Assembly (NCBI RefSeq): GCF_025869515.1
Contig: NZ_JAOZVR010000093.1
Span: 1 to 64,000, forward strand
Length of the DNA stretch: 64,000 nt
Reading direction: 5' to 3'
Source of the DNA: Ferrovibrio sp.
GTDB taxonomy: Bacteria; Pseudomonadota; Alphaproteobacteria; Ferrovibrionales; Ferrovibrionaceae
In this document: piece by piece, positions 28,346 through 61,768 of the stretch
How positions within the stretch are numbered: the first letter of the stretch is position 1
Layout of the letters: every line of letters starts with the position of its first letter
Notes under the pieces: model-generated
The model's database searches: none
What the model was told of the DNA's origin: nothing
What the model saw: only the letters and a program-made list of their open reading frames with translations
Position numbers and translations under genes: made by a program

Positions 28346-28584
28346 ATAACATCAGATATAGGAAATAGTCTGGACGGCACCCCTCGTCGCAGCATACGGT
28401 TTCAGTAGAAGCGCCAAACACACGAGCGCTTCAAATCGGAGGATCGTCCGCCCTAAAGCATGAATGCGGGGGCCGGATTTTTCACTGATGAGATTGACTG
28501 AGCTTCCCGGTGACCCCGGGGAGAACGAGTGGTTGTTGCCAAAACAAGGGGCTTTCGCCCGAAAACGACAAACGCGGAGGAAAC

Positions 28585-29724: not shown

Positions 29725-29743
29725 CTCCAAGGGCCGAAAACGG

Positions 29744-30619
29744 ATGGACCTGTTTGTTCAAACAGTAATCAACGGTCTGATCCTGGGGTCGGGCTACGCA
29801 CTCGTCGCGGTAGGGTTAACCATTATCTTTGGGACGTTGCACATCGTGAACTTCGCACACGGGGCATTCTTTGCCCTGGGTGCCTATGCGGTGCTGACGT
29901 TGCAAAACTTTGGTGTGCCCTACCTCCTGGCCATCCCTCTGGCTGCGATAGTGGTAGCGGTAATTGGTTATGCACTTGAGTTGTCAATTGTCCGGCGCGC
30001 GTTATACGACCGGGGTGAGCACGGCTCGATTATCATCACCTTTGCCATCTCTCAGGCAATTGTATCTGCGATTATTCTGGTGATTGGTCCGGACCCTATC
30101 CCGGTCAAGTCGCCGTTTGGACAGACAGCGATGTCCGTTTTCAGTTACTTCATCTCTGCCCAGCGTCTCTTTATTGCAGGCACGGCACTGGTGGTCCTTG
30201 TTGGCTTTGGCCTCTGGCTCCGAAACTCCACCAAGGGCCAGCAAATTCTCGCCGTCTCCCAGAATGCCAAGGGCGCACTCTATTCCGGCATCAACGTACC
30301 GCTCATTCGGAGCCTGTCCTTCATTCTGGGCGTAGCGGCTGCGGGATTGGCAGGTAGCCTGCTTGCCCCGTTGATTTCGGCTTTCCCGACCATGGGCGAT
30401 GCAAATGTCACCATTGCTTTCACGGTCGTCATCCTGGGCGGCCTGGGGAGCATTGGAGGCGCTTTGCTTGGTGCGCTCGTCATCGGCCTGAGCAACGCAT
30501 TCTTCGAGACCTATGTCTCGGTGTCCTGGACCCCGGCGCTCGGCTGGATTCTCGTCATTCTAGTTCTGCTCCTCTGGCCCCAGGGCCTGTTGGGCAAAGC
30601 CCAGCTCAACCGGCACTGA
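29744..30619 (+). CDS. ABC transporter permease (LivH-like)
   Basis: This 291-residue membrane permease opens with QTVINGLILGSGYALVAVGLTIIFG, followed by HIVNFAHGAFFALGAY, the LivH hallmark. The second hallmark, ILGGLGSIGGALLGAL, is near residue 228. About eight hydrophobic helices are visible. It follows the binding-protein gene by 19 bp and precedes the LivM-like gene by 4 bp. Confidence 0.9.
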   Translation: MDLFVQTVINGLILGSGYALVAVGLTIIFGTLHIVNFAHGAFFALGAYAVLTLQNFGVPYLLAIPLAAIVVAVIGYALELSIVRRALYDRGEHGSIIITFAISQAIVSAIILVIGPDPIPVKSPFGQTAMSVFSYFISAQRLFIAGTALVVLVGFGLWLRNSTKGQQILAVSQNAKGALYSGINVPLIRSLSFILGVAAAGLAGSLLAPLISAFPTMGDANVTIAFTVVILGGLGSIGGALLGALVIGLSNAFFETYVSVSWTPALGWILVILVLLLWPQGLLGKAQLNRH

Positions 30620-30623
30620 TGTC

Positions 30624-31628
30624 ATGACGAACTCGGAATCACTTGCCATGAAAGCATTGGGTAACCGCAGTGGCCTGCCACTGAAGCAGCTTGGCCTAAT
30701 CGCGTTCGGTGGTCTGCTGATCGCGGGCATCGGCCTGGGTTTCGAAAGCGCGTTCCTGCTGGGGCTCGCGGCTTATACCTGCGCCTTCGCCATTTTCGCC
30801 CTCAGCGTCAATATTATGCTGGGTGGTATCGGAGAGGTGCCGCTGGGCCAGTGCGTGTTCTTTGGTATCGGCAGCTACGCTCCGGCCATCGTTATGCAGC
30901 AAGGCGGCTATCCCTTTGAGGTCGGCATCCTAATTGGCATGACGGTCAGCGCCTTCCTCGCAATCCTCATCGGTTGGCTGACACTGCGTCTGACTGGCGC
31001 CTATTTCTCGATCGTTTCCTGGGGGCTGTCTGGTGTCGCCATGGTGACGGCGCTCAACTTGGAAGTAACCGGCGGCCCGCTTGGCCTGTTTGGTTTTACC
31101 CGGTTGGCCATAGGCCCGTTCGACCTTTCCAGCCCGAAGGTCTACTTCATCGCGTCTGCGGTGATCCTGCTTGTCGTTTTGGTGTTCCTGGCACACGTCC
31201 GCAGTTCGCGTTTCGGTAACGCGCTGGAAAGTACCCGTCAGAGCAGCCACCTGGCTCAATCGCTCGGCATCAACGTCTTCCGTGAGCGCCTCAAGGCCCT
31301 CGTTCTGAGTGCGCCCATTGCCGCGCTGGCCGGGAGCCTTTGCATTCCGTACACCCAGATTGTTACCCCCGAGGTGATGTCGGTTATCCGAACTGTGGAC
31401 GCTCTCTTGGCGGCCCTCATTGGCGGGACATCATTGCTGATTGGACCGGTCATCGGTGCCGTAATTTTCACCATTCTCCCGCAGCTCATGCATTTCGATG
31501 CCAATGTCAAAGTTCTGGTGTTCTCGCTGCTCATCATCTTCATCATCATGGTCGCACCAGGCGGCTTGCATCAGCTCTATAAATCCGCGGTCGCACGCTA
31601 CCGCCACGGCAAGAAAGAGCGGGCGTGA
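30624..31628 (+). CDS. ABC transporter permease (LivM-like)
   Basis: This 334-residue permease has the LivM region NIMLGGIGEVPLGQCVFFGIGSYAP near residue 65, with Pro-Leu-Gly-Gln where most relatives have SFGH. It has ALIGGTSLLIGPVIGAV near 258. Its first 20 residues are hydrophilic and an ATG at 30648 is an alternative start. The stop overlaps the ATPase gene. Confidence 0.88.
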   Translation: MTNSESLAMKALGNRSGLPLKQLGLIAFGGLLIAGIGLGFESAFLLGLAAYTCAFAIFALSVNIMLGGIGEVPLGQCVFFGIGSYAPAIVMQQGGYPFEVGILIGMTVSAFLAILIGWLTLRLTGAYFSIVSWGLSGVAMVTALNLEVTGGPLGLFGFTRLAIGPFDLSSPKVYFIASAVILLVVLVFLAHVRSSRFGNALESTRQSSHLAQSLGINVFRERLKALVLSAPIAALAGSLCIPYTQIVTPEVMSVIRTVDALLAALIGGTSLLIGPVIGAVIFTILPQLMHFDANVKVLVFSLLIIFIIMVAPGGLHQLYKSAVARYRHGKKERA

Positions 31629-32410
31629 TGACGATGACAAAGTTCGCAGTGGTGGCCGATGGCGTGGAGAAGCGCTACGGCGGCGTTGCGGCCCTCAAGG
31701 GCGTGGATATTCGCATTCCGGAAGGCTCCGTTTACGGCCTGATTGGCCCGAACGGCGCCGGAAAGTCTACGATGTTCGACGTCCTGTGTGGCATCACCAA
31801 ACCGACCACGGGGTCAGTGAACGTTCTGGGTATGGATGTGACCAAGCTGCCCGCATATGCGGTGGCGCGACGCGGCGTGGGTCGAACCTTCCAGCGTACC
31901 GCCATGTTCAAGGAATCGACGGTTCGAGAGAACCTGCTCTATGCATGCTACGGCAAGATGCAGCACAGCGTACTTCATCGCATCTTTCGGCTTCCCGTAT
32001 GGCGGCACGATATGGCCGTTTTCGAGGAAAAGGTCGATGAGGTTCTTGCCGTTTGCGGTCTGAGCGAGTTGCGCAACAACGAAGCGTCTTCACTCGCCTA
32101 TGGCATCCAGCGGCGGCTGGCCGTCGCCATCATGCTGATGAACGACCCGAAGATCCTGTTCCTGGACGAACCGGTAGCGGGCATGAACGAGGCGGAAACC
32201 GCCGAGTTTATCCAGCTTCTGCGGACAGTCGGATGTGGCCGTACCATCGTTATCGTGGAACATGATATGGCCGCTATCGGCGCCCTGTGTGACGATGTCA
32301 TGGTGATGGTCGACGGAAGGGCAATCGTGACCGATACGCCCGACCGCGCCTTGAAACATCCCGATGTCATCACCGCTTATCTGGGGGCTGACGATGACCA
32401 GCGCTGGTAA
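31625..32410 (+). CDS. ABC transporter ATP-binding protein (LivG-like)
   Basis: This 261-residue ATPase has Walker A GPNGAGKST near residue 42 and the LivG-type signature SLAYGIQRRLAVAIML near 160. Walker B ILFLDEPVAGMNEAE is near 178 and the switch His is in VEHDMAAI. A GTG at 31625 overlaps the permease stop; ATGs at 31628 and 31634 are equally possible starts. The 3' end overlaps the next ATPase gene by 17 bp. Confidence 0.9.
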   Translation: MMTMTKFAVVADGVEKRYGGVAALKGVDIRIPEGSVYGLIGPNGAGKSTMFDVLCGITKPTTGSVNVLGMDVTKLPAYAVARRGVGRTFQRTAMFKESTVRENLLYACYGKMQHSVLHRIFRLPVWRHDMAVFEEKVDEVLAVCGLSELRNNEASSLAYGIQRRLAVAIMLMNDPKILFLDEPVAGMNEAETAEFIQLLRTVGCGRTIVIVEHDMAAIGALCDDVMVMVDGRAIVTDTPDRALKHPDVITAYLGADDDQRW

Positions 32411-33107
32411 GCTTCTCGATGTTCAGGGGCTCACTGTCGGCTATGGCCGCGTGGTTGCCCTGCGCGATATCTCCCTTTGTGTCGGACAAGGAGAGGTTGT
32501 CGCCATCCTGGGTGCCAATGGTGCTGGCAAGACAACGCTCCTGAACGCTATTTCCGGTGTGCTACCCACCCAGTCTGGAGTGGTGCGTTACTTGGGTCGC
32601 CCGATTACCGGCATGAAGTCCTGGCATACCAGCCGTATCGGCCTGAGCCATGTCCCTGAGGGCCGCGAAGTCTTCCCGGGTATGACGGTCGAAGTCAATC
32701 TGAAGATTGTCGACGTCAACGGCGGTGGCCCGAAAGTCACGGTCGACGATGTCCTGACGCTCTTCCCGCGGTTGAAGGAGCGCTTCCATCAACTCGCGGG
32801 CGGCCTGTCTGGTGGCGAGCAGCAGATGCTGGCCATCGGCCGAGGTCTGATGGCCTGCCCGAAGCTGGTGTTGTTCGATGAGCCGTCGCTCGGCCTGTCG
32901 CCGATGCTCAGCAAGGCGGTCCTGTCCGTCATTGGCGGTCTCAAAGAACGTGGGATTTCCGCACTTCTGGTCGAGCAGAATATGCGCGCGGCCCTCCGGA
33001 TCGCCGACCGCGGTTATGTGCTACGCGTGGGCCGTATCACTGCCGAGGGCAGTGCCAAGGAGCTGGCGGAGTCGCCGGATATCCAGCGCGCATATCTGGG
33101 ATTTTAG
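32394..33107 (+). CDS. ABC transporter ATP-binding protein (LivF-like)
   Basis: This 237-residue ATPase has Walker A GANGAGKTT near residue 40, the signature LSGGEQQMLAIGRGL near 135, Walker B LVLFDEPSLGL near 157 and VEQNMRAAL near 190. It completes the importer. The hydrolase gene of the same operon follows after 25 bp. Confidence 0.9.
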   Translation: MTSAGKLLDVQGLTVGYGRVVALRDISLCVGQGEVVAILGANGAGKTTLLNAISGVLPTQSGVVRYLGRPITGMKSWHTSRIGLSHVPEGREVFPGMTVEVNLKIVDVNGGGPKVTVDDVLTLFPRLKERFHQLAGGLSGGEQQMLAIGRGLMACPKLVLFDEPSLGLSPMLSKAVLSVIGGLKERGISALLVEQNMRAALRIADRGYVLRVGRITAEGSAKELAESPDIQRAYLGF

Positions 33108-33132
33108 GTCTCGTTCTTGTAGGGGTGCTTCA

Positions 33133-33993
33133 ATGACCGATGCGGCTACCGAATACCGGCTTCCCGAGGGAAGCGTAGACTGCCACTTCCATATCTATGG
33201 TCCCTTCGACCGCTTTCCCTACAACGACGAGGGGCGCTTCACTCCGGCGCGTCCATTCACCATCGAGAACGCGTTTGAAATCTGGGAACAGATCGGTGTG
33301 TCGCGTGGCGTCATCGTCCACGCCGTGGGATCGGGCGACGACAATGCGGTGACCTATGACGCGTTGCGGCGGTTCCCGGACAAGCTGCGCGCCACGGCTA
33401 TCCTGCGCCCCGATATCTCGGATCGGCGCCTGGATGAACTGACAGATGCCGGTTTCAAGGCCGTTCGCATCACCATGATCCGACAAGACGGCAAACCGGT
33501 CTCAACCAAGGGAACCAGCTATGACGACCTGCTGAAGCTGGCGCCCAGGATTGCCGAGCGCGGTTGGCATGCCCAGCTCTGGATCGAAAGCTCCGACCTG
33601 GCAGCAGCAGCCGCCGACCTGGAAAGGCTCCCGCTAACCTATGTCATCGACCATATGTCCAGGACGATGGCCGACAAGGGGCGTGAGCATCCCGACTTCG
33701 TAGCCTTCACCGAGCGCCTGAAGACCGGTCGCTACTGGGTGAAAATCTCAGGCGCCGACCGCAATACCCGCACCGGCCGCCCATATGCCGACACCGCGCC
33801 ATACATGAAAGCGATCGTTGCCGCCGCATCCGACCAGGTGGTTTGGGGGAGCGATTGGCCACACGTCGGCCACACGACTGAAAGCATGCCAAGGCTCCAG
33901 GATTTGCTGCGGCTATTCCACGAGTGCGTCCCGGATGAGGCGACTCGTCGGAAGATTCTCATCGATAATCCGACGCGACTTTACAACTTTTGA
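33133..33993 (+). CDS. amidohydrolase (LigI-like metal-dependent hydrolase)
   Basis: This 286-residue TIM-barrel amidohydrolase opens with the DCHFHIYGP motif (His18 and His20), followed by DRFPY. It closes with VWGSDWPHVGHT near residue 238, carrying the metal-site Asp, and ends with NPTRLYNF. This layout is that of the 2-pyrone-4,6-dicarboxylate lactonase (LigI) and lactone isomerase family. Hydrolysis of a lactone or activated ring product is a reasonable inference. It follows the transporter genes and overlaps no gene; a CoA-transferase gene starts 16 bp later. Confidence 0.85.
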   Translation: MTDAATEYRLPEGSVDCHFHIYGPFDRFPYNDEGRFTPARPFTIENAFEIWEQIGVSRGVIVHAVGSGDDNAVTYDALRRFPDKLRATAILRPDISDRRLDELTDAGFKAVRITMIRQDGKPVSTKGTSYDDLLKLAPRIAERGWHAQLWIESSDLAAAAADLERLPLTYVIDHMSRTMADKGREHPDFVAFTERLKTGRYWVKISGADRNTRTGRPYADTAPYMKAIVAAASDQVVWGSDWPHVGHTTESMPRLQDLLRLFHECVPDEATRRKILIDNPTRLYNF

Positions 33994-34009
33994 TTTGACC
34001 GAGGGCATA

Positions 34010-35221
34010 GTGACCACCGCAAAGAATATGCCTCTGGAAGGCGTCGTCGTTTTGGACCTAGGTCAGGTTTACCAGGGGCCCTATGCGGGCTTCCTACTCG
34101 CCCAGGCCGGCGCCACTGTCATCAAGGTGGAACCGCCGCGCGGCGAGCCAGTCCGTCATCGGGCCAAGATCAGCAGGGGCAATGCAGTCCCGTTTGCCAT
34201 GCTGAATGCCAACAAGCGCAACATCAGCCTGAACCTGAAGTCGCCCGAAGGCGTCGCGCTGTTGAAGAAGTTGGCCTCCAAGGCCGACATCCTCATCGAG
34301 AATTATGCTCCCGGCGTGCTCGACCGGCTGGGTGCAGGGTACGAAATCCTCTCCAAGCTAAACCCACGTCTCATCTATGGATCTGCGACGGGCTACGGGC
34401 TGTCTGGCCCTGATCGCGACAACCTGGCGATGGATCTGACCATTCAGGCAGTGTCCGGCATCATGAGTGTGACGGGCTTCCCTGATGGCCCCCCGGTAAA
34501 GGCTGGTCCGGCCATCACCGACTTCATCAGCGGTGTTCACCTGTACGCAGGTGTCGTGACCGCTCTCTACAATCGCGAGAAGACTGGCAAAGGCCAGCTT
34601 GTCGAAATCGCCATGGTGGAAACGTCTTACCCGGCGATGGCCTCCAACTTGGCCGATGTCTTCAACAATCGCGCTCCGGCGCCGCGGACGGGCAATCGAC
34701 ACGGCGGTTTGGCCGAGGCGCCTTACAACGTCTATCCCACCAAAGATGGCTATGTCGCCATCATCAGTGTGAACGAAGCGCATTGGATCGGTCTGACCAA
34801 GGCGATGGGTAAGCCAGAGCTGGCGAATGATCCGCGGTTCAAAACCGTGCTGGACCGCCTGAAGCATATTGATATGACCGACAAGATCGTATCGGATTGG
34901 ACCTCCGGTTTAACCCGGACCGAGGTCACGGAGCTTTGCCGGGTCCAGAAGGTGCCTTGCGCCGCAGTGCGGAACCTCCTGGAAGTGACCGAGGATAAGC
35001 ACCTGCATGCGCGCGGTATGCTTCGTGAGATTTCCCACCCGGAATATGGGGATATCCTGGTCCACCGCAGCCCGATCGTCCTGCATGGCGCTGAAACCCC
35101 GGACTATGTGCCGTCGGCCAGACTCGGGCAGCATAATAGTGACGTGCTGTCGGAATTCCTTGGGTTGTCGGCGGACGCGGTCAACGCCCTAGAGAAGACC
35201 GGAGCGCTCTCGAGGGGTTGA
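34010..35221 (+). CDS. CaiB/BaiF class III CoA-transferase
   Basis: This 403-residue class III CoA-transferase should move CoA between acids, probably activating the pathway's acid substrate. N-terminal VVVLDLGQVYQGPYAGFLLA and VIKVEPPRGEPVRHR are typical. The catalytic Asp lies in NLAMDLTIQAVSG near residue 140. A GTG at 34010 preceded by GAGGG is preferred; an ATG at 34028 is the alternative. The block has no AMP-forming ligase of its own, so this enzyme may replace one. Confidence 0.9.
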   Translation: MTTAKNMPLEGVVVLDLGQVYQGPYAGFLLAQAGATVIKVEPPRGEPVRHRAKISRGNAVPFAMLNANKRNISLNLKSPEGVALLKKLASKADILIENYAPGVLDRLGAGYEILSKLNPRLIYGSATGYGLSGPDRDNLAMDLTIQAVSGIMSVTGFPDGPPVKAGPAITDFISGVHLYAGVVTALYNREKTGKGQLVEIAMVETSYPAMASNLADVFNNRAPAPRTGNRHGGLAEAPYNVYPTKDGYVAIISVNEAHWIGLTKAMGKPELANDPRFKTVLDRLKHIDMTDKIVSDWTSGLTRTEVTELCRVQKVPCAAVRNLLEVTEDKHLHARGMLREISHPEYGDILVHRSPIVLHGAETPDYVPSARLGQHNSDVLSEFLGLSADAVNALEKTGALSRG

Positions 35222-35231
35222 GGAGTACATA

Positions 35232-36308
35232 ATGCAAGTCGATACCATTGTCCTAGACTCAGCCGAACGTCTGTTTCAGGACGTTGCCGACATTCAGTCC
35301 GTTGTCTCTGCCAAGAACACGAGCTGGAAGGAAAAGCTGTGGTCGGGCATCGAAGAGAATGGCCTCAACATTGCCGCAGTACCCGAATGCCTCGGCGGCG
35401 CTGAAATCGGCCTCCAGTCAGCCCTGGGTATCCTTCGTATTGCAGGCCGAATGGCTTTATCCGCTCCGCTAGCGGAAACCATTCTGGCGGGCTGGATGCT
35501 GGGTGCTGCTGGCTTGACAGCCCCGACAGGTAAGATTGCCTTTGGTCCCGCCCGTTTCGGGGACGGCATCTTCATGAAACTCGATGGCACGGTGTCTGGC
35601 CGGGCCTCGCACCTGCCTTTCGCCAGTGAGTGCAGCCATGCCGTCCTGCTGGTGCAAGGGCATCAGGGACTGAGTGTTGTCCTGGTGCCGCTGGCAGATG
35701 CCCAAATCACGTCGCGCCAGTCCCTAGCTTACGAGCCTCTAGATCATGTCACCTTCAAGGATGTCCAGCCTGTAGCCAGTGCTGCGGCACCCGCTGGGTT
35801 CGACAAGGATACGGCATTGCTGATGGGTGCCGCAGCACGGTCTATGCAGATTGCAGGCGCTATGGAGAAAATCCTGGCAATCACGATGGACTACGCGACC
35901 CAGCGTAAGGCCTTCGAGCGCACTATCTCCAAGTTCCAGGCGGTCCAGCACGGCATCGCGCAGCTTGCCGGAGAGGTGGCCGTCTCATTGAGCGCCGCTG
36001 AGTCCGCAGCCGAGGCCCTGGATAGCCTGCTGGGTGCCGGACGTGGCTTCGATGACCCTGAACTGCAGCTTGAGGTAATGTCCGCCAAGATACGTGTGTC
36101 GACGGCTATTCGTAAAGGTGCTGCCATTGCCCATCAGCTTCACGGTGCCATTGGCGTGACCAACGAGCACATCCTGCACCGGCTGACCCTGCGTGGTCTG
36201 GCGTGGCGCGACGACTATGGCAATGAAAGCCAGTGGTCGGAAAAACTCGGCACACTCATCTGCGGCAGAGGGGCGGAAGCGCTCTGGCCCCTACTGTCGA
36301 CTCGATAA
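35232..36308 (+). CDS. acyl-CoA dehydrogenase, short subunit-like
   Basis: This 358-residue acyl-CoA dehydrogenase homologue follows AGGAG. The C-terminal domain contains RKAFERTISKFQAVQHGIA near residue 217 and ALAHQLHGAIGV-like text near 295. The N-terminal and middle domains are compact and lack the usual SEPxxGSD segment, and there is no EGT catalytic motif. Together with the next gene it resembles the paired subunits of heterotetrameric dehydrogenases known from steroid catabolism. Pairing is inferred from adjacency and complementary losses. Confidence 0.83.
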   Translation: MQVDTIVLDSAERLFQDVADIQSVVSAKNTSWKEKLWSGIEENGLNIAAVPECLGGAEIGLQSALGILRIAGRMALSAPLAETILAGWMLGAAGLTAPTGKIAFGPARFGDGIFMKLDGTVSGRASHLPFASECSHAVLLVQGHQGLSVVLVPLADAQITSRQSLAYEPLDHVTFKDVQPVASAAAPAGFDKDTALLMGAAARSMQIAGAMEKILAITMDYATQRKAFERTISKFQAVQHGIAQLAGEVAVSLSAAESAAEALDSLLGAGRGFDDPELQLEVMSAKIRVSTAIRKGAAIAHQLHGAIGVTNEHILHRLTLRGLAWRDDYGNESQWSEKLGTLICGRGAEALWPLLSTR

Positions 36309-36322
36309 ATGGCGCAAGCATC

Positions 36323-37480
36323 ATGACCTCAACTCTCGAATTCCAACCCCTCCGCCTGCCAGAACGAGTCCAACAGCTTCGCCTGGAGGTCCGTGCCTTC
36401 ATTCAGTCTGAAATCGACGCCGGAGTCTTCAACCCGGATGACCCGGAGACGGACTGGGAAATCCATCGGCAGTTCGCCAGGAAGGTCGCCGCGCGTGGCT
36501 GGATTGGCATGACATGGCCAAAGCAATACGGCGGGCAGGAACGCAGCTTCCTGGACCGGTACGTGGTCAATGAGGAAATGCTCGTCCACAATGCGCCGAA
36601 TACAGTCTATTTCACCGCCGATCGCCAGTCCGGCCCCACGCTCATCAGATACGCGTCAGAGCGCATCAAGTCGGAAGTGTTGCCCAAGATTATCGCTGGG
36701 GAGGCTTGCTTCTGCATCGGTATGTCCGAGCCGGACAGTGGCTCAGACTTGTTCGCGGCCAAGTGCAAGGCGACGCGATCGGAGGGCGGCTGGAGAATCA
36801 ACGGCACAAAAATCTGGACGACAAATGCCCACCAGTCCAACTACATGATCGGTATCTTCCGGACCAGCGCGCCGACAACAGAGAACCGCCGTCATGGCCT
36901 GACGTCATTCCTGGTCGACATGAAGGCGCCAGGCATTACGTGCAACCTCATCGACCAGATGAGCGGCATCCGCGATTTCAATGAGGTCGTGTTCGATGAC
37001 GTCTTCCTGCCGGATGATCAGCTCATCGGCGAGGTCGACGGTGCCTGGAAGCAGGCTACCACCGAGCTTGCCTATGAGCGCAGCGGTCCGGAACGCTTTC
37101 TGGAGACCTTCGCGGTACTGCGCAATCTGGTGGGCTTGGCTGGTAACTCTGCCGACCAGCGACTGGGTGAGGCCATCGGCCGCCTGGTGGCAGAGCTGCA
37201 TTCCCTGCGACGTATGTCGGTGTCGGTGGCGGGGATGCTGGAGGCAGGCCGCGAGCCGACGGCAGAAGCCGCAATCGTTAAAGACCTCGGTACCATCTGG
37301 GAGCAGGACCTGCCCCAGCGAGTGCGGGATGCCATTGCCTTCCTGCCCGCGGACGAGGCCTTCGACCGCTTCGATGAGGTTCTGCAGTTCACCACACGCA
37401 TTGCGCCGAAACTGACCATTCAGGGCGGCACCACGGAAATTCTTCGCGGTGTCATCGCCCGTGGTCTTGGTCTTCGCTAA
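36323..37480 (+). CDS. acyl-CoA dehydrogenase, long subunit-like
   Basis: This 385-residue acyl-CoA dehydrogenase retains the FAD/substrate segment GMSEPDSGSDLFA near residue 132 and TKIWTTNAHQS near 162. It has ERSGPERFLETF near 250 and ends with QGGTTEILRGVIARGLGL. It starts 14 bp after the previous dehydrogenase; the frame also reads back into that gene but the ATG at 36323 fits the family. It likely forms the flavin-bearing partner of the preceding subunit and makes an enoyl-CoA. Confidence 0.86.
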   Translation: MTSTLEFQPLRLPERVQQLRLEVRAFIQSEIDAGVFNPDDPETDWEIHRQFARKVAARGWIGMTWPKQYGGQERSFLDRYVVNEEMLVHNAPNTVYFTADRQSGPTLIRYASERIKSEVLPKIIAGEACFCIGMSEPDSGSDLFAAKCKATRSEGGWRINGTKIWTTNAHQSNYMIGIFRTSAPTTENRRHGLTSFLVDMKAPGITCNLIDQMSGIRDFNEVVFDDVFLPDDQLIGEVDGAWKQATTELAYERSGPERFLETFAVLRNLVGLAGNSADQRLGEAIGRLVAELHSLRRMSVSVAGMLEAGREPTAEAAIVKDLGTIWEQDLPQRVRDAIAFLPADEAFDRFDEVLQFTTRIAPKLTIQGGTTEILRGVIARGLGLR

Positions 37481-37498
37481 CCGGTAAGGGTATTCACG

Positions 37499-38269
37499 AT
37501 GTCCGATCTCAACATCTCGCTCGATGGCCACGTCCAGGTCATCGAAATCAACCGCCCGCCGCACAATTACTTTGACACCGAGCTGCTCCGGCAGATTGCG
37601 GATGCCTGTGATGTGGCCGATGCGGATGCGGAAGTCCGGGCCAATCTCCTGTGTGCGAACGGCAAGTCCTTTTGCGCGGGTGCCAATTTCACCGGCAAGC
37701 AGCCCGAGACCCCTGCCGAGCGCCGAGCAGACTCCCGACGGCTCTATGACCAGGGTCTGCGTATCTTCCGCGGCAAAAAGCCAATTGTTGCGGCCGTTCA
37801 GGGCAATGCCATAGGCGGCGGCATGGGTGTTGCTCTGGCAGCCGATTTCCGCGTGGCTTCGTCGGAAACGACCTTCGCCGCGAACTTTACCAAGCTCGGC
37901 TTCCATCCCGGTTTCGGCCTGACCGTCACGCTGCCGAACCTCATCGGCCCGACCAAGGCGTCACTGCTTTTCCTAACCGGCCGCCGAGTGAAGGGCGAAG
38001 AAGCCTATCGGCTAGGTCTGTGCGACGTCTTGGCGACGGCCGAGACCCTGCGCACAGAGGCTATGAAGCTTGCCCAGGAAATCGCCGAGAGTTCGCCGCT
38101 GGGTGTGAAGTCCACACGGGAGACCCTGCGCCTTGGCCTGGTCGAGCGGATAGAAGAGCGGCTCAACCGGGAGCTCGACGAGCAGTCCTGGCTCCGGGAG
38201 ACCGAAGACTTTGCCGAAGGCGTCCGAGCCACGGCTGAACGGCGGGCTGGGAACTTCGAGGCCCGGTAA
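37499..38269 (+). CDS. enoyl-CoA hydratase/isomerase family protein
   Basis: This 256-residue crotonase has oxyanion-hole segments GKSFCAGANF near residue 54 and GNAIGGGMGVALAADFRV near 100. The active-site loop FTKLGFHPGFGLTVTLPNLIG is near 126; the usual catalytic Glu of the loop is replaced by His-Pro text. It should act on the enoyl-CoA made by the dehydrogenase pair encoded just upstream, adding water, isomerising or cleaving. It is not closely similar to the crotonase at 27547. Confidence 0.87.
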   Translation: MSDLNISLDGHVQVIEINRPPHNYFDTELLRQIADACDVADADAEVRANLLCANGKSFCAGANFTGKQPETPAERRADSRRLYDQGLRIFRGKKPIVAAVQGNAIGGGMGVALAADFRVASSETTFAANFTKLGFHPGFGLTVTLPNLIGPTKASLLFLTGRRVKGEEAYRLGLCDVLATAETLRTEAMKLAQEIAESSPLGVKSTRETLRLGLVERIEERLNRELDEQSWLRETEDFAEGVRATAERRAGNFEAR

Positions 38270-38285
38270 TCACAAGGAGGGGACG

Positions 38286-39458
38286 ATGGTGAAGCTTTTC
38301 GAAAAGGCTAGCTTCCGCGGCGTCGAGCTAAAGAACCGTATCGTGGTGTCGCCGATGGGCATGTACTCTGCGGAAAATGGGTATGTCACTCCATTTCACC
38401 TCGTCCACTACGGCAAGTTCGCGATGGGCGGAGCAGGCCTGGTTTTCGTTGAGCAGACCTCCATCACCCGCAAGGGCCGCATCACAAATGGCGACCCGGG
38501 CCTGTGGGAAGACGGCCAGATCAATGGCATGCGGCAGATCACCCATGTCATCAAATCGGAAGGCGCCAAGGCGGCCATCCAGATCAACCATGGTAGCCGC
38601 AAGTCCGGCCAGCAGCGTGCGTTTCGAGGCAATGGGCCGCTGACCGACCGCGACATCGAGATGGGGGAGGAGACCTGGCAGGCTTTTGGTCCGTCAGATG
38701 TCCCCTTGGGCGAAGGCTGGCCGATCCCAAAGTCCCTCAGCAAGGATGGCCTGGTCGGCGTGCGTGACGCCTTTGTAGCCGCAGCCAAGCGTGCCGTCCT
38801 GGCCGGTTTCGATGTCATCGAACTGCATATGGCCCATGGCTACTTGTTGCAGTCATTCCTGTCGCCGCTCGCCAACTTCCGGACGGACGAACACGGCGGC
38901 AGCCTGGAGAACCGCATGCGGTTCCCGCTGGAAGTCGCAAAGGCCGTCCGTGCGGCGATCCCAAGCTCCATGCCTCTGTTTGTCCGGATCTCAGCGACCG
39001 ACTGGATTGATGGCGGCTGGGACATCAAGGACAGCGTCATCTTCTCCCGTAAGCTTAAGGAGCTTGGCGTCGACCTTGTGGACTGTTCGGCCGGTGGCAA
39101 CCTGCGCATTGGCTCGACAAATGCCAATCTGGCGCGCGGTCCGGGCTATCAGGTGCAGTTCGCCGACCAGATCCGCCGTGAAGCCGGTATTGCCACAGGC
39201 GTCGTCGGCATGATCCGGTCCCCTGATTTCGCCGAAGAAATCCTTCAGAAAGACCGTGCCGATCTCATCTTCATAGCGCGCCAGATGCTGTTCAATCCAT
39301 TCTGGGCGCTGCACGCCGCAGAGCATTTCGGTCTGACCGGCAACTATCAGGATTGGCCGGAGCAATATGGCTGGTGGCTGACCAAGTGGGGCAGCGCCTT
39401 AAAGGCCAACGGCGAGAATCCACTAGGGCCGGAAAAATTTTCCGAGGCAGCCGAGTAG
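38286..39458 (+). CDS. Old Yellow Enzyme-family NADH:flavin oxidoreductase
   Basis: This 390-residue FMN-binding TIM barrel is of the YqjM/XenA class and starts after a strong AAGGAGGGG site. VELKNRIVVSPMGMYS is near residue 14, the substrate His pair region QINHGSRKSG near 100, and HGYLLQSFLSPLANFRTDEHGGSLENR near 182. The class-typical Cys in PMCMYS is Gly25 here. Such enzymes reduce activated C=C bonds or act on dienoyl/enone compounds, which fits a ring or unsaturated substrate. The exact reaction is unknown. Confidence 0.88.
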   Translation: MVKLFEKASFRGVELKNRIVVSPMGMYSAENGYVTPFHLVHYGKFAMGGAGLVFVEQTSITRKGRITNGDPGLWEDGQINGMRQITHVIKSEGAKAAIQINHGSRKSGQQRAFRGNGPLTDRDIEMGEETWQAFGPSDVPLGEGWPIPKSLSKDGLVGVRDAFVAAAKRAVLAGFDVIELHMAHGYLLQSFLSPLANFRTDEHGGSLENRMRFPLEVAKAVRAAIPSSMPLFVRISATDWIDGGWDIKDSVIFSRKLKELGVDLVDCSAGGNLRIGSTNANLARGPGYQVQFADQIRREAGIATGVVGMIRSPDFAEEILQKDRADLIFIARQMLFNPFWALHAAEHFGLTGNYQDWPEQYGWWLTKWGSALKANGENPLGPEKFSEAAE

Positions 39459-41186
39459 GTGAGCGTGGTGAGTAAGTCGGAACCATCAGTGGAAAGCCTG
39501 GAAAGCGGTGGCATGCCCGCGGTTGCTCCTCACATTCCGGCGCCTTGGGGTGATCCAATCAATGTAGGTACGAGTGATATGGGTGACGGCAGGTTTGACT
39601 TCATTATTGTAGGCGGCGGTACCGCCGGATGCGTGCTTGCCAATCGTCTGACGGCAGATAGCAAGTATAAGGTCTTGATGCTTGAGGCAGGCGGAGAGGA
39701 CATAGGCATCTGGCTGAACATTCCAGCCGGGTTCACCAAGCTCCTGACAAACCCCAAGTTCAATTGGCGATTCAACACGGAGCCTGAGGACAACACCAGA
39801 GGGCGTGTCATCGCCGTCCCGCGCGGCAAGGGCTTGGGTGGTTCCTCCCTTATCAACGGCATGATCTTCGTCCGTGGCCAGCCCGCCGATTTCGATGGTT
39901 GGGCCCAGATGGGAAACCAGGGTTGGTCGTTCGACGACGTCCTGCCGTATTTCAAAAAGCTGGAGGTTTTTGAGGACGGCGAGAACGAGCTGCGCGGGGG
40001 CAAAGGGCTGTTGCATGTCGTCCGCGTGATCGAGCGGCCTATTCTGGCAGAAGCATTTATTGATGCGGCAGAGGAAGCCGGGTTCAAGCGAAGCAACGAC
40101 TACAATGGCTCATCTCAGGATGGTTTCGGTTATTACCAGGTCAATCAGCGCGATGGCCGTCGCTGGAGTGCGTCGAACGCCTATCTGCGACCGGCGAGGA
40201 ACCGTTCGAACCTGACAGTTCTCACCGACGCCTATGTCACCAAACTTGTGCTGGAAGGAAGGCGTGTTATTGGCGTGGAGTATCAGCGCGGGAGCCGCAC
40301 CCAGCGTGCGCTCGCCAGAGAAACCTTACTGACCGCTGGAGCCATCCAGTCGCCGCAATTGCTGGAGTTGTCAGGCATCGGCGATCCGGATGTACTGCGT
40401 TCAGTGGGCGTCGACGTGAAGCATAGCCTCCGTGGGGTCGGCGCCAACTATATTGATCATTTCTGCACGCGCATGAATTGGCGGGTGAACAAGCCTATCA
40501 CGCTGAACGAGCTCACCCGCGGATTGTCGCTTATCAAAGCGGTCGCTCAGTATGGCTGGACTCGGAAGGGTATCTTGGCTCTTGGCACGGGCCTGGCTCA
40601 TGGATTTGTCAGAACCAATGCCACCCTGAACTCGCCAGACGTCCAGTATTTCTTCATGCACGCCAGCTATGGCAATGCAGCCGTTCGCACGCTCGACACT
40701 CAACCGGGGATGACCTTGGGCGTGTCTCAGATGCGTCCCGAGTCTCGTGGCGCCATCCACATCAAGTCCACTAATCCAAGCGAACAGCCTGCTATCAGGC
40801 CGAACTTCCTGGCGACTAAGACCGACCAAATGGCCATCGTAGAGGGCATGAAGATCGGTCGCGAGATCATGAAGCATCCGGCCATCCAGCAGTATATCGA
40901 CCATGAACTCAGCCCTGGCGAAGAAGTCAATACCTATGATGAGTGGCTCGAATTCGCGCGAACTAACGGCCAGACCATCTACCACCCCGTCGGTACCTGT
41001 AAGATGGGTGTCGATACCGAATCAGTGGTCGACAACCGGCTGCGCATCCACGGACTTGACGGTGTACGGATCGCTGACGCGTCAATCATGCCGACGATCA
41101 CTTCGGGCAATACAATGGCCGCAGTCCTGATGATTGCTGAGAAGGCTGCTGACATGATTCTTGCCGACGCAAGAGCGACCCGTTGA
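39459..41186 (+). CDS. GMC-family flavoprotein oxidoreductase
   Basis: This 575-residue FAD enzyme of the choline-dehydrogenase/alcohol-oxidase class has the ADP-binding motif FIIVGGGTAGCVLANRL near residue 48. The GMC signature PRGKGLGGSSLINGM is near 123, and the C-terminal active-site region has YHPVGTCKMG near 508 with ITSGNTMA near 548. It should oxidise an alcohol. The long frame starts with GTG at 39459, one base after the previous stop. Other possible starts are 39468 and the ATG at 39579, which gives the more usual 535 residues. Confidence 0.88.
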   Translation: MSVVSKSEPSVESLESGGMPAVAPHIPAPWGDPINVGTSDMGDGRFDFIIVGGGTAGCVLANRLTADSKYKVLMLEAGGEDIGIWLNIPAGFTKLLTNPKFNWRFNTEPEDNTRGRVIAVPRGKGLGGSSLINGMIFVRGQPADFDGWAQMGNQGWSFDDVLPYFKKLEVFEDGENELRGGKGLLHVVRVIERPILAEAFIDAAEEAGFKRSNDYNGSSQDGFGYYQVNQRDGRRWSASNAYLRPARNRSNLTVLTDAYVTKLVLEGRRVIGVEYQRGSRTQRALARETLLTAGAIQSPQLLELSGIGDPDVLRSVGVDVKHSLRGVGANYIDHFCTRMNWRVNKPITLNELTRGLSLIKAVAQYGWTRKGILALGTGLAHGFVRTNATLNSPDVQYFFMHASYGNAAVRTLDTQPGMTLGVSQMRPESRGAIHIKSTNPSEQPAIRPNFLATKTDQMAIVEGMKIGREIMKHPAIQQYIDHELSPGEEVNTYDEWLEFARTNGQTIYHPVGTCKMGVDTESVVDNRLRIHGLDGVRIADASIMPTITSGNTMAAVLMIAEKAADMILADARATR

Positions 41187-41195
41187 GGCGACGCG

Positions 41196-41666
41196 ATGCC
41201 TATACTTCTTGAGAAATCGGTAGCTAGCACCTTTGGTGTTGATGGCGCTTGGCACTTCGGCATCGAGGTTGAGTGTTGTTACGGCGACCTGGACCCCAAT
41301 CAGCACGTCAACAATGTCCGGTACCTTCAGTGGTGCGAGGATGCTCGCGAAGCCTATTTCCGGGCACTGTTAGGGAAGTGGACGCTTCATTCTTCTTACG
41401 GCATTGTCCTGAGGGCGCTGGAATTCACGTTCGAGCAGTCCCTGTCAATAGGTGACCGTTGCCTCGTGACGGCCCGCACTGCCGAGCTGAAGAACACCAG
41501 CTTTATTCAGCAATATGCCGTGTGGAAAGATGGCCTCGTCGGTACCGGAAAGGCCGTCTGCATTTTTTTCGATCGGGCGTCCAACCAGAAGATGGCGATC
41601 CCGCCCGATTTTCGTGCGCTCATTACCGGCCTGGAAGGCGATAGCCTATCCGGTGCCGCGAATTGA
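41196..41666 (+). CDS. acyl-CoA thioesterase (4HBT hotdog family)
   Basis: This 156-residue hotdog protein has the YbgC/FadM-type catalytic text YGDLDPNQHVNNVRYLQWCEDAREAYF, split around residues 28-54. It should release a free acid from a CoA ester formed in the upstream steps, or relieve CoA sequestration. It sits 9 bp after the GMC gene and 38 bp before the flavoprotein gene. Confidence 0.87.
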   Translation: MPILLEKSVASTFGVDGAWHFGIEVECCYGDLDPNQHVNNVRYLQWCEDAREAYFRALLGKWTLHSSYGIVLRALEFTFEQSLSIGDRCLVTARTAELKNTSFIQQYAVWKDGLVGTGKAVCIFFDRASNQKMAIPPDFRALITGLEGDSLSGAAN

Positions 41667-41704
41667 TCGCTCCAGTGTGAATTTCACTGATTGAGGCTGG
41701 ATAG

Positions 41705-43120
41705 ATGTCCGGAAGCATTTTGGAGCAGGCGGCCGCGATTGTTGGCGCCAAATACGTTCAGACGAACAAGGAGGATACTGACCAGTACCTACGCGACTGG
41801 CGTGGCCGGTATGAGGGGAGAGCGCTCGGCGTCATCCTGCCGGGTAACACCGAGGAAGTCTCTCGTGTTGTTCAGCTTTGCAGCGAGTTTGGGGTCTGCA
41901 TTGTTCCTCAGGGCGGCAATACTGGCCTCACCGGTGGGGCCGTACCCCAGGATGCGGCGGCTGTCGTGCTCAATGTTTCCAGGCTGAATCGTGTTCATGA
42001 GGTCGATGCGGCTAACAATTCCATGGTCGTCGAGGCGGGCTGTATCCTGGCAAATGTCCGCGATGAGGCGGAGAAGCATGATCGGCAGTTCCCAATGTTG
42101 CTGGGTAGTGTCGGTAGCTGCGAGATTGGTGGCCTGATTTCGACAAACGCTGGTGGAACCGGGGTTCTGCGCTACGGGAATATGCGCGAGCTGGTGCTGG
42201 GCATCGAAGCAGTGCTCCCCGACGGTCGGATATGGAACGGCCTGAAATCTCTCCGCAAGGACAACTCGGGCTACGACCTGAAGCAGCTCTTTATCGGTGC
42301 TGAAGGCACCCTGGGCATTGTCACCGCAGCGTCCTTGAAGTTGTATCAGCGGCCCGTCCAGTCAGCGACCGCCATGGTGGCGACGGCTGACCTCGACCAA
42401 GTCATCAAGCTGCTCCATTTGGCGCAAAAGTCGATTGGCAACCGGATTGAGGCGTTCGAGGTCATGTCCATGAGCCAGCTGAAGGTGGTCCTGAAGCACC
42501 GCTCGGATTTCAGCAGCCCAATGCCGGTGGAGGCGCCCTGGTACGTCCTGATCGAGATTGCCGACAGTGCCGAAGGCTGGGGCCCTTCCGAGAGCCTTGA
42601 AGCCGTGCTGGCTGTTGCCCTGGAGCAGGAGATTATCTCAGACGCAGCGATTGCGACAGATCTCGCTAAGGCTGCCAAAATCTGGGAGCTACGGCACAAC
42701 ATTTCGGAAGCCAACAAGCATGAGGGCTTCACGGTCTCCAACGACACCTCGGTGCCGATTTCGGCCATTCCGGAGTTCATTGCCAGGGTTGATAAGCGGT
42801 TGGCCACGCTAAAATCAGCGACCATCTGCCATGTCGGCCACGTAGGCGACGGCAATATACATGTAATCGCCGTGCTCCCACGTGACATCTACAACTCTCC
42901 GGACGTCTGCGAGGAAGGTGCGGCGACGGTCAACGCTATCATCCACGAAGAGACCGTTGCGCTGAATGGCAGCATCAGCGCTGAACATGGCATAGGCATC
43001 ATGCATGTTTCGCGCCTCGAACATTTCAAGCCATCCATCGACCTGGACATGATGCGTGCCGTCAAAGCGGCGTTCGACCCTAAGGGGCTTATGAACCCGG
43101 GAAAGATTTTTAATGTGTAG
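41705..43120 (+). CDS. FAD-binding oxidase (GlcD / D-2-hydroxyacid dehydrogenase family)
   Basis: This 471-residue protein has an FAD_binding_4 (PCMH) domain with VPQGGNTGLTGGAVPQ near residue 70. The GlcD-type C-terminal domain has HVGHVGDGNIHV near 378, the metal-site histidines, and the end AEHGIGxxH...MNPGKIF. Members oxidise D-2-hydroxyacids such as D-lactate or D-2-hydroxyglutarate and pass electrons to quinone or ETF. It is the last gene of the block. A weak GAGCAT/ATGCTC dyad at 43120-43138 follows. Confidence 0.88.
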   Translation: MSGSILEQAAAIVGAKYVQTNKEDTDQYLRDWRGRYEGRALGVILPGNTEEVSRVVQLCSEFGVCIVPQGGNTGLTGGAVPQDAAAVVLNVSRLNRVHEVDAANNSMVVEAGCILANVRDEAEKHDRQFPMLLGSVGSCEIGGLISTNAGGTGVLRYGNMRELVLGIEAVLPDGRIWNGLKSLRKDNSGYDLKQLFIGAEGTLGIVTAASLKLYQRPVQSATAMVATADLDQVIKLLHLAQKSIGNRIEAFEVMSMSQLKVVLKHRSDFSSPMPVEAPWYVLIEIADSAEGWGPSESLEAVLAVALEQEIISDAAIATDLAKAAKIWELRHNISEANKHEGFTVSNDTSVPISAIPEFIARVDKRLATLKSATICHVGHVGDGNIHVIAVLPRDIYNSPDVCEEGAATVNAIIHEETVALNGSISAEHGIGIMHVSRLEHFKPSIDLDMMRAVKAAFDPKGLMNPGKIFNV

Positions 43121-43426: not shown

Positions 43427-43627
43427 TCACGGCGGGCACAGTTGGCCATAGGCCGGCAACGACTGCAGCCAATGCTCGGCCTCGTCGCGAGGGATATAAG
43501 TGCGCTTGCCGTATTTCACGGCTTTGAGTGCCCCATGCTTCATGAGCTCATAAACTTTGCTGCGGCTTGGGCCATAGCTTGCTGAGAACTCTAAAATCGT
43601 CAGATTGCGTTTATCGTCTGCCTGCAT
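43427..43627 (-). CDS. AlpA/excisionase-like helix-turn-helix protein
   Basis: This 66-residue protein has a MerR-like HTH_17 layout: LTILEFSASYGPSRSKVYELMKHG, then a short wing with VKYGKRTYIPRDEAEHWLQSL. Proteins of this size and type serve as excisionases or as activators of integrase genes (AlpA) in integrated elements. It lies 200 bp beyond the 3' end of the integrase gene on the same strand. It could direct excision or only regulate. Confidence 0.75.
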   Translation of the reverse strand: MQADDKRNLTILEFSASYGPSRSKVYELMKHGALKAVKYGKRTYIPRDEAEHWLQSLPAYGQLCPP

Positions 43628-43827: not shown

Positions 43828-45165
43828 TCAAGACGACGGGGGAAGTTTACTGACGATGCGGTTCGCCACGGCTTCTGCCATGATTGATCGTGCCTCTCGA
43901 TCATATTTTGAATAGCGCGCGCTCATGAGTGTCGTCGAATGCCCCATGAGAGCCATGATCTGCTTCTCATGCATGCCTGCTTCAGCTGCCATTTGACCGT
44001 AGAAATGTCGCAGGTCATGAATGCGAGGGCGTTCGCCGCTGGGTTTCGTCAGCTTGGCTTCGTCGCGAATGCGATACCAAACACGCGTAATTTCTTTTAA
44101 ATGCCCGCGGCGATCTGCTCCCACAAAGACATGGGGGTTTCCAACTACTCTTACGGTTTTAAGAATCCGTAATATCTCTTCCAATGGTTCAGTTATTGCG
44201 CGCAGCATGGCGCGCTGACCGCGCCCAAGGGCCTTGGTCTCTTTGCGCCGACTATTGCGAAGCCATTCTATAACCTGGCGATCTTCCTTGATCTGATCCC
44301 ATCGCAGTTTCAGTGCCTCATTTTTGCGAACGCCAGTTATAACGAGAAAGCGAATGGCAAGAATCGACCAAATGCTTGGCAGATGTTCGCAAATTGATCC
44401 ATCAGCATTACGAAGGCTAACTCCAAAGGAGCCTGCGAGATGTGCGTTCTGTGCAATAGTCTGATAGCGATTTAAAACAGATCCCAAGCGTACTAACTCG
44501 TCATCTTCCCACTCATAATGGCGCTCTGTATCAAGTTGAGAGAAATTTCGATCGATGAATTCACACGGATTTGTGTGCCGCGGCATGAGCTCTTGTCGCT
44601 CTGCCCAGTTAAACAGCGCTTTTAAAATATCTATCGCTTTGTCCGCGACGTGAGGAGCCGGTATTTGTGCGGGGATTGTACTAGCTTTGCCTTTCTCTTT
44701 TGAACGAACTGCCTTCGTCATGCCTGCATGCCAGGCGCTGATCTCAAATGCACGGATTGAACTCGCTACGCGGCTTCCAAATATCGGGAGCACGCGTTTT
44801 TCTAGACAGCGCCAAGTTTCATAGGTGGGCTTCTTAATTCGTTTATACTGCTCTGCAATGAATCCCAATGTGATTTTCGGCGGGGGCGGCACAAGGGGAT
44901 CGGCGCCTTGAAGCAGCGACGCCTTAATCTCTAGCGCCTTTGATCTAGCGTCCTTGAGTGTTTCCACGCCATCTAAACTGCGCTTCGTTGCGCTACGCTG
45001 ACCAGGAGGACGATACTCTAAAAGGAAAGTTTTGCGTCCTGAGCGAGACGAGACACGGACCTTTAGTCCCTGGGTCTTTGCGTCGCTATAGATCGTGTCT
45101 TTGTCATCTATGGCTTTGAGCTTTGCTAGATCTGCTTCAGTACTAAATTTGAGTTGCGCGCGCAT
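43828..45165 (-). CDS. int: tyrosine recombinase / integrase (P4 type)
   Basis: This 445-residue integrase has an N-terminal DUF4102 domain (about 20-95, with FLLEYRPPGQR). A SAM-like core-binding domain follows to about residue 220, then the catalytic domain. The Arg is in ITGVRKNEALKLRWDQI, the His-x-x-Arg box in HDLRHFYGQMA, then MGHSTTLMSARYSKY with the nucleophilic Tyr near residue 420. It is much more AT-rich than its surroundings. Its start faces a tRNA-Val 3' fragment 160 bp away, its likely attachment site. All catalytic residues are present, so it may be active. Confidence 0.93.
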   Translation of the reverse strand: MRAQLKFSTEADLAKLKAIDDKDTIYSDAKTQGLKVRVSSRSGRKTFLLEYRPPGQRSATKRSLDGVETLKDARSKALEIKASLLQGADPLVPPPPKITLGFIAEQYKRIKKPTYETWRCLEKRVLPIFGSRVASSIRAFEISAWHAGMTKAVRSKEKGKASTIPAQIPAPHVADKAIDILKALFNWAERQELMPRHTNPCEFIDRNFSQLDTERHYEWEDDELVRLGSVLNRYQTIAQNAHLAGSFGVSLRNADGSICEHLPSIWSILAIRFLVITGVRKNEALKLRWDQIKEDRQVIEWLRNSRRKETKALGRGQRAMLRAITEPLEEILRILKTVRVVGNPHVFVGADRRGHLKEITRVWYRIRDEAKLTKPSGERPRIHDLRHFYGQMAAEAGMHEKQIMALMGHSTTLMSARYSKYDREARSIMAEAVANRIVSKLPPSS

Positions 45166-45176
45166 AGGTTGCTCCG

Positions 45177-45198
45177 ATTTGGCGACAATTTGGCGACA
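45177..45198. repeat. tandem 11-bp repeats upstream of integrase
   Basis: ATTTGGCGACA occurs twice in immediate succession, ending 12 bp (first copy) and beginning 23 bp from the integrase start region. One-helical-turn spacing and location between the integrase gene and the attachment core fit arm-type integrase sites or an autoregulatory site. Function is inferred. Confidence 0.5.
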
Positions 45199-45299
45199 AA
45201 ACCGGTGCGAATCCTATTTCCTGGTCGTTCTCGAGTTTTCCCGTGTTTCCTTTAAGCAATTGAACGCGAATGGAAACTTGGAATCCCGGGAAGGTGAGG

Positions 45300-45351
45300 G
45301 AACTCCCGACATCCTCAAAGTTGGCTTTTACACCGAGGATGTCGGGAGTTC
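45300..45351. repeat. 17-bp perfect inverted repeat around the attachment core
   Basis: GAACTCCCGACATCCTC (45300-45316) is the exact reverse complement of 45335-45351, which is the anticodon-stem to T-arm portion of the tRNA-Val fragment. The arms are 18 bp apart. A second, inverted copy of tRNA-derived sequence next to the core is not needed for simple integration and may be a binding arrangement of the recombinase or a scar. Confidence 0.7.
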
Positions 45352-45371
45352 GCCCCTCTCATCGCCCACCA
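45327..45371 (+). pseudogene. tRNA-Val(UAC) 3' fragment, probable attR core
   Basis: From TTTACAC (anticodon loop with anticodon TAC) through CGAGG, ATGTC, GGGAG, T-loop and CTCTC, ATCGCCC, to ACCA at 45368-45371, the order matches the 3' half of an alphaproteobacterial tRNA-Val. A T7 tract follows. The T-loop reads TTCGCCC, with C in place of the invariant A58. No matching 5' half (GGGCGAT...) is present upstream. The match starting exactly in the anticodon loop fits a crossover there. The identity was made from memory of tRNA-Val sequences. Confidence 0.75.
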
Positions 45372-45378
45372 TTTTTTT

Positions 45379-45582: not shown

Positions 45583-46170
45583 CTATAGCAGCTGGCAGGC
45601 GCGTTCGAAGGCGTGGCGCGGCTGGCGGCCGAACAGTTTGGTCGGGTCGCCGTATCCGATATTGCACAGGAAGTCGACCTGGTGGCGTCCATCCTGGAAG
45701 AATTCGGCATTCACCTTGGCCGTATCAAAGCCGCTCATCGGACCGCAATCCAGACCCACCGCGCGCGCGGCGATCATCAGATAGGCGCCCTGCAGCGTGG
45801 CATTGCGCTGCGCCGTGGCCTGCGCCATCGGCGCATTGCCGGCGAAGGTGTCGCGCGCCTCCGGCTTGTGCCAGATTTCGGGCATATAGTCGTAGAACTG
45901 CATGTCACGTGCCACGATGGCGGTCACCGGCGCGGCCATGGTCTTCTCCAGATTGGCTGGCGACAGGGCAGGGGCCAGACGCTGTTTGGCTTCGCGGCTG
46001 CGCAGGAACAGCACCCGCATCGGCTGGGTGTTCATCGAGGTCGGACCCATCTTGGCGATGTCGTAGATGTCGCGCAGCTGTTCATCCGAGACCGGTTTGT
46101 CCAGCCAGCCATTCTGGGTGCGTGCGTCGAGGAAGAGCTGCTTCAGGGCGGCGGCGGCAATGCGGTTCAT
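45583..46170 (-). CDS. rutE: nitroreductase-family protein, malonic semialdehyde reductase RutE-like
   Basis: This 195-residue FMN-dependent nitroreductase-family protein has WLDKPVSDEQLRDIYDIAKMGPTSMNTQPMRVLF spread over residues 22-55. The FMN-site text NATLQGAYLMIAARAVGLDCGPMSGFD is near 122-148, and FGRQPRHAFE is at the end. Length and order match RutE/HadB, which reduces malonic semialdehyde in pyrimidine breakdown or detoxifies related aldehydes. No other rut genes are adjacent. It is downstream of the GntR gene by 15 bp, so it may be co-transcribed with it. Confidence 0.82.
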   Translation of the reverse strand: MNRIAAAALKQLFLDARTQNGWLDKPVSDEQLRDIYDIAKMGPTSMNTQPMRVLFLRSREAKQRLAPALSPANLEKTMAAPVTAIVARDMQFYDYMPEIWHKPEARDTFAGNAPMAQATAQRNATLQGAYLMIAARAVGLDCGPMSGFDTAKVNAEFFQDGRHQVDFLCNIGYGDPTKLFGRQPRHAFERACQLL

Positions 46171-46185
46171 GGAGCGGGGTCCGGT

Positions 46186-46893
46186 TCAGAGCGCCACGGA
46201 GGTGCGTACGATGGTGGCGGTCTTGCGCAGATGGGTTTCCAGCGCGGCAACGGCGCGGTCCACATCCCGCTCCATCACCGCGTCGAAAATCGCCTTGTGC
46301 TCGGCCGGCACGTCGCGTGTCTCGGTCTGCAGCGGCACGGACATGCGGCGATAGCGTTCGCTCTGCTCATAGAGCATGGCGCGCATGCGCAGCAGCCAGT
46401 CGTTGCCGCAGGCGCCGACCAGCTCGGAATGGAAATCGGCATGGGCGCGCGACCACACCTCGCTGAGATGCAGATCCTTGCCGGCCTCGCTCTGGCTCAG
46501 GCGTGACAGGCGGTGCCAGCTGGCGACCAGCCGGCTTTCCCAGGCGAGATCGCCGCGTTCGATCGAGGTGCGCAGGCACAGGGTCTCGATGGCGATGCGC
46601 GCCTCGGTGATGTCGGCCAGTTCCTTAGGGGAAACCGGACTCACCGTGTAGCCGCGCTGCGGCTCGGAAACCACGAGCGCTTCGGACTGCAGCATCGACA
46701 GCGCCTCGCGCACGGCGCCAAGGCTGACATCCAGGTCGGCGGCGAGGGCGGCGATATTCAGCTTGGTACCAGGCATATGCCGGCAGGACAGGATATCGGC
46801 GCGAATCTGCGTATAGGCGCGATGCGACTTGGTACCCGGACTTTCCGGCGGAGCTGCGGGCGTGGTGTCAGTCGGGCTGTGGATTATTTTCAT
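46186..46893 (-). CDS. GntR-family transcriptional regulator (FCD/FadR type)
   Basis: This 235-residue regulator has an N-terminal winged HTH (about 25-90; RAYTQIRADILSCRHMPGTKL and AALAADLDVSLGAVREALSML). The all-helical FCD effector domain has metal-site residues in ITEARIAIE, HADFH and EHKAIFDAV. It is divergent from the dioxygenase/hydrolase/transporter genes starting at 46984, its probable targets. Dyad and direct-repeat candidates lie at 46887-46920. Confidence 0.9.
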   Translation of the reverse strand: MKIIHSPTDTTPAAPPESPGTKSHRAYTQIRADILSCRHMPGTKLNIAALAADLDVSLGAVREALSMLQSEALVVSEPQRGYTVSPVSPKELADITEARIAIETLCLRTSIERGDLAWESRLVASWHRLSRLSQSEAGKDLHLSEVWSRAHADFHSELVGACGNDWLLRMRAMLYEQSERYRRMSVPLQTETRDVPAEHKAIFDAVMERDVDRAVAALETHLRKTATIVRTSVAL

Positions 46894-61765: not shown

Positions 61766-61768
61766 ATG

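Follow-up and report, generated by a model that had tools for sequence, protein, structure and literature searches.

A displaced tRNA-Val(UAC) 3' half as the probable attR of a catabolic island in Ferrovibrio, with a mirrored arm that appears to follow the tRNA allele

We analysed a stretch of 64,000 nucleotides from a Ferrovibrio sp. genome (hereafter the window), which makes up the initial 64 kb of the 140,648-bp contig C93 in a draft assembly of 126 contigs. It carries a series of catabolic genes, an integrase gene followed on its strand by a small excisionase-like gene, a tRNA fragment embedded in an inverted repeat, and a right flank shared with related genomes:

24..43120, no strand assigned: catabolic cargo (acyl-CoA ligases, dehydrogenases, thioesterases, ABC and TRAP transporters, CoA-transferase)
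43427..43627, minus: HTH_17/excisionase-like protein of 66 aa (profile search)
43828..45165, minus: tyrosine integrase of 445 aa with Arm-DNA-bind_3 and Phage_integrase domains (domain search)
45158..45224, no strand assigned: 67-bp block identical at 67/67 positions to a sister element in G002 and containing the TTTGGCGACAA repeats (alignment)
45178..45199, plus: tandem pair of TTTGGCGACAA repeats, probably integrase sites of the arm type (P arm)
45288..45316, plus: mirror arm, which repeats the tRNA 3' half in inverted orientation but lacks some T-loop bases; perfect over 45300-45316 and weaker leftward
45327..45371, plus: displaced tRNA-Val(UAC) 3' half, positions 32-76, putative attR (comparison with intact genes)
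45327..45333, plus: anticodon loop TTTACAC, 7 nt, presumed overlap/crossover region
45335..45351, plus: right arm of a perfect 17-bp inverted repeat, within the tRNA half (repeat search)
45372..45378, plus: T-run after CCA, which together with the hairpin resembles an intrinsic terminator
45583..46893, minus: right flank with a nitroreductase and an FCD/GntR regulator, conserved in G001, G002, G005, and G008 (synteny)

The stretch at 45327-45371 on the plus strand reads TTTACACCGAGGATGTCGGGAGTTCGCCCCTCTCATCGCCCACCA, and its 45 nt correspond to the part of tRNA-Val(UAC) that runs from position 32 in the loop to the CCA end. It is a 3' half only, as the earlier note had recognized: the DNA left of TTTACAC has no match to the 5' half of tRNA-Val, and ARAGORN detected no tRNA in the window. 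A search of the same genome with the query tRNA recovered the half at 93% over 45 nt (E 6.7e-13), and on sequence grounds chance is excluded for this match. The intact tRNA-Val(UAC) genes of Ferrovibrio occur as an allele A (G003, G004, G007, G008, and G009, plus G006 with one more change), from which the half differs at 2 of 45 positions, and an allele B (G001, G002, and G005), from which it differs at seven. One of the two differences from allele A is the replacement of A58 by C, which had already been pointed out and which follows from the T-loop reading TTCGCCC; all 21 intact tRNA-Val(UAC) genes compared have A at this position. Searching 45000-45700 against Rfam returned nothing beyond matches to a microRNA hairpin family that stay below threshold and are attributable to the palindrome at the site.

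The integrase gene starts 162 bp from the tRNA half, in agreement with the distance of about 160 bp initially given. Its ORF is open and full length, retains catalytic-motif residues (GVR, HDLRH, GH, Y), and encodes a protein that can be aligned with lambda integrase at low similarity. Apart from the sister described below, a search of 385 alphaproteobacterial genomes (E 1e-40) yielded no relative, and relatives are equally absent from plasmids, phages, and viral contigs. An integron-type integrase was ruled out, the match to the XerA/integron-integrase model being weak (30.6 bits, with the cut-off at 220). The Xis-like gene reported next to the integrase is present as an HTH_17/excisionase-like ORF of 66 aa; its TIGR01764 score of 24.9 lies under the curated cut-off of 28.8. 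Neither relaxase nor type IV secretion genes were identified among the scanned ORFs of the window and of contig C29 from the same assembly, in which the element is incomplete.

Between the integrase and the tRNA half are positioned the two TTTGGCGACAA repeats. The same motif occurs after the CCA of the intact tRNA-Val in G002 and G008, after the attR of G002, and at the end of contig C29. From their sequence and placement, these direct repeats, which flank the core, probably serve as arm-binding sites, P and P'.

Ferrovibrio EaCA-1 70 (G002) harbours a sister integrase with 77% amino acid identity, and a displaced half at an equal relative position and distance from it. This half is 100% identical to the intact tRNA-Val of that genome, which sits on a different contig. 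At the DNA level the two integrase regions share 72% identity overall, unlike the 67-bp block comprising the P arm, whose complete conservation suggests that selection is still acting on it. In both elements, identity to the tRNA begins at position 32. This agrees with the anticodon-loop crossover proposed in the earlier note, the strand exchange itself being something we infer. The attR of G002 (L090:4949-5024; G002:C41:72948-73023) is directly followed by another P' arm with TTTGGCGACAA, an arrangement that probably represents a tandem array of Val elements.

Within the same genus, we observed six more integrases located beside displaced tRNA 3' halves (L104, L105, L108, L109, L110, and L112). 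These halves belong to tRNA-Lys, Gly, Arg, Gly, Phe, and Arg, respectively, and their identity starts at positions 29-33. Judged by sequence, tRNA islands of the anticodon-loop type are numerous in Ferrovibrio.

On the right side, the nitroreductase lies 211 bp beyond the tRNA half. Synteny with four relatives (G001, G002, G005, and G008) starts at 45579-45587, at the nitroreductase stop, and the interval 45372-45583 has no homologue in the relatives' loci compared. An intact tRNA-Val(UAC), which the earlier note sought to the left of the window, is absent from the draft assembly together with its conserved upstream neighbourhood; it is found in the same orientation to the left of the nitroreductase in G001 (12.1 kb away) and G005 (12.7 kb). 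The comparison with relatives therefore supports the linkage of tRNA-Val and nitroreductase, but with about 12 kb of other genes, metabolic in nature, filling the interval. The tRNA-Val locus is thus a hotspot with variable content. None of the relatives has tRNA-Val immediately beside the nitroreductase, so that a clean empty site was not found. In G008, a decayed tRNA-Val island of 4.6 kb (L124, G008:C82, about 14928-19676) extends from the intact tRNA-Val to a degraded displaced half and codes for a type I secretion ABC transporter and membrane-fusion proteins, with no integrase. Further right in the window, 61011-62613 is about 74% similar to the segment of G005 and G001 lying directly left of the nitroreductase, before tRNA-Val, and this similarity may reflect a rearrangement of the right flank.

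Concerning the left end, the lack of an intact tRNA-Val in the draft assembly means that the boundary of the element cannot be set. The start of contig C29 contains, on the minus strand, the last 14 nt of an allele B tRNA-Val (GTCATCGCCC) followed by a P' arm. Its sequence identifies this contig end as the left end of a Val-family element, not necessarily the one in the window. Its allele B differs from the window half, which is close to allele A, and C29 may therefore end another, tandem element; we set it aside as a certain left end of the window element. C29 (L120) encodes MotA/ExbB-like, PEGA/FGE-sulfatase, and TPR proteins, two VWA proteins, and an FAD oxidoreductase, which are probably additional island cargo. 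In the window itself, the cargo genes that read rightward finish at 43120. For 1-20 kb no syntenic match was found in nine Ferrovibrio genomes, and 26.7-39.4 kb is colinear with one place in G004 at 72-73%, indicating that this cargo block exists elsewhere too (the search left out 20-25.6 kb). The same genome also contains second, divergent copies of tRNA-Pro(UGG), tRNA-Thr(UGU), and tRNA-Cys(GCA) (G000:C98:21221-21579 and G000:C72:6217-6287), possibly element-borne tRNAs or a binning contamination.

Taken on sequence evidence, 45327-45371 is very probably the attR of a genomic island inserted in tRNA-Val(UAC), with the element lying to its left. The leftward extension, and hence the assignment of the half to the right attachment site as first proposed, is supported by the sister in G002, the synteny of the right flank, and the arm-type repeats on either side of the core. 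The attP of the circular island would have the stretch between anticodon loop and CCA in common with the chromosomal tRNA-Val(UAC) gene, and a tyrosine integrase of the Arm-DNA-bind_3 type would exchange strands in the 7-nt loop. At the left end, an intact tRNA would be regenerated with a 3' half provided by the island; at the right end, the host's own 3' half would be left behind at 45327-45371, where its function would no longer be needed. The integrase and excisionase-like genes would thereby be placed just inside attR, and, on the left of the crossover, attP would also bear the mirrored tRNA half in a form that matches the tRNA allele.

There is a lesser but appreciable chance that the half is an old attR relic, either because cargo and integrase no longer form one excisable element or because the left boundary falls within a tandem array, in which case the integrase would belong to just part of the DNA on that side. 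Consistently with this, the attR of G002 directly abuts another P' arm, G008 retains a decayed island devoid of integrase, and the C29 allele is unlike the window half. However, the full-length, open integrase with intact catalytic-motif residues and the perfectly conserved P arm argue against a relic. That the half would be a chance pseudo-tRNA unconnected with the integrase, as the missing intact partner might suggest, is highly improbable given the identical arrangement in G002, where a homologous integrase is equally far from the fragment, and the six other Ferrovibrio integrases likewise flanked by tRNA 3' halves.

The attachment site has a further feature, absent from the earlier note. 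On the element side of the anticodon loop, to its left, a mirror arm forms a perfect 17-bp inverted repeat with the tRNA half (GAACTCCCGACATCCTC at 45300-45316 against GAGGATGTCGGGAGTTC at 45335-45351). The window has no second repeat of that length, and when the 200 bp were shuffled 2000 times, no repeat of even 12 bp arose. A mirror arm is also present in the sister element of G002, where it matches allele B. On the plus strand, the predicted fold reaches -45.5 kcal/mol (z -5.4) in the window and -47.8 kcal/mol (z -6.4) in G002, and six or seven T follow within a few bases of either hairpin. The window arm is predicted to fold with its own half at -45.5 kcal/mol, with allele A at -48.1, and with allele B at -38.9, whereas the G002 arm gives -47.8 kcal/mol with its own half (allele B), -32.1 with the window half, and -30.7 with allele A. 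Exchanging the arms thus weakens both modelled folds, and each arm appears to track its tRNA allele. As read from the alignment of the two arms, two T-stem pairs carry a change on each side, and at a third pair the complement comes with an indel. Three to four T-loop bases are absent from both mirrors.

The mirror arm is known from two intact cases, the window and G002, both of them integrase-bearing Val elements. No clear mirror was detected at eleven other att sites (six Ferrovibrio sites in tRNA-Lys, Arg, Phe, and Gly, and five thrW phages), which amount to fewer than eleven independent cases as several are close relatives of one another; the p of 0.047 at the tRNA-Lys site is weak, being one of eleven tests. 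No mirror was scored at the decayed Val site of G008. The palindrome pattern occurs in no other of the 385 alphaproteobacterial genomes and in no viral contigs, and no account of a mirrored tRNA half in attP was found in the open-access papers searched. The arms were also considered as ordinary paired core sites and rejected as such: they lie 16-18 nt apart, too far for a simple pair around an overlap of about 7 nt.

Our preference, a tentative one, is that the mirror is a putative extended dyad for integrase recognition rather than a terminator or a mutational by-product. It is somewhat unlikely that it acts as a transcription terminator, with the hairpin and T-run halting rightward transcripts that leave the island and the pairing being kept for the sake of the stem. 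This would fit the two plus-strand hairpins, with the energies and z-scores given above and their six or seven T, and the rightward cargo genes that end at 43120. However, any hairpin would suffice for termination, with no need to copy a tRNA half or to track its allele, and the equivalent region of other islands is without such a mirror.

Rather unlikely, too, is that the arm is a functionless by-product of palindrome self-correction, in which template switching during replication at a quasi-palindrome copies the tRNA allele. Allele tracking is the outcome expected from template switching, and the distance between the arms is short (18 nt); however, both mirrors lack T-loop bases that templated copying would tend to restore, and the arm is retained in two elements whose integrases are 23% different. 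Within the preferred reading as a recognition dyad, we regard as doubtful the more specific version, by which the integrase of Val elements would read a long dyad or folded strand in attP holding the mirror of the 3' half of its target tRNA.

Islands of this type are already known from the Islander catalogue, where an anticodon-centred subsite was assigned in 2083 of 3919 islands (PMC4383910), and the mirrored, allele-matched arm is probably the part that may be new. As in Islander-type islands, a correctly oriented 3' fragment lies beside a tyrosine integrase, with identity from anticodon loop to CCA; unlike them, the window element has an extra mirror copy on the element side of att, and its left end is open in the assembly (PMC4383910). 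The tRNA-Val symbiosis ICEs of Bradyrhizobium, likened here by description and not by sequence, are also alphaproteobacterial and target tRNA-Val, but they are about 0.5 Mb in size, bipartite, and carry symbiosis cargo (PMC9174649). The P22-type thrW attP (P22, HK446, SfV, ENT47670, and GF-2) likewise shows identity from anticodon loop to CCA, there over 46 nt, but no mirror arm, and the integrase is on the opposite side of the core. Integron attC sites are palindromic, and it is the complementarity of their arms that is kept rather than the sequence. The window site resembles them in retaining complementarity over sequence within a palindrome, but it has a tRNA gene as one arm, and its integrase falls under the XerA/integron-integrase cut-off.

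As the very probable attR, the tRNA half would show where a catabolic island terminates on one side, at a tRNA-Val locus that is a hotspot in several Ferrovibrio species. To judge from the mirror arm, attP may be constrained in more than the usual core and arm sites. If the folded-dyad reading is true, attP would be tuned to the host tRNA allele through base pairing rather than through a fixed core, and the element would have to follow changes in the tRNA allele of its host.
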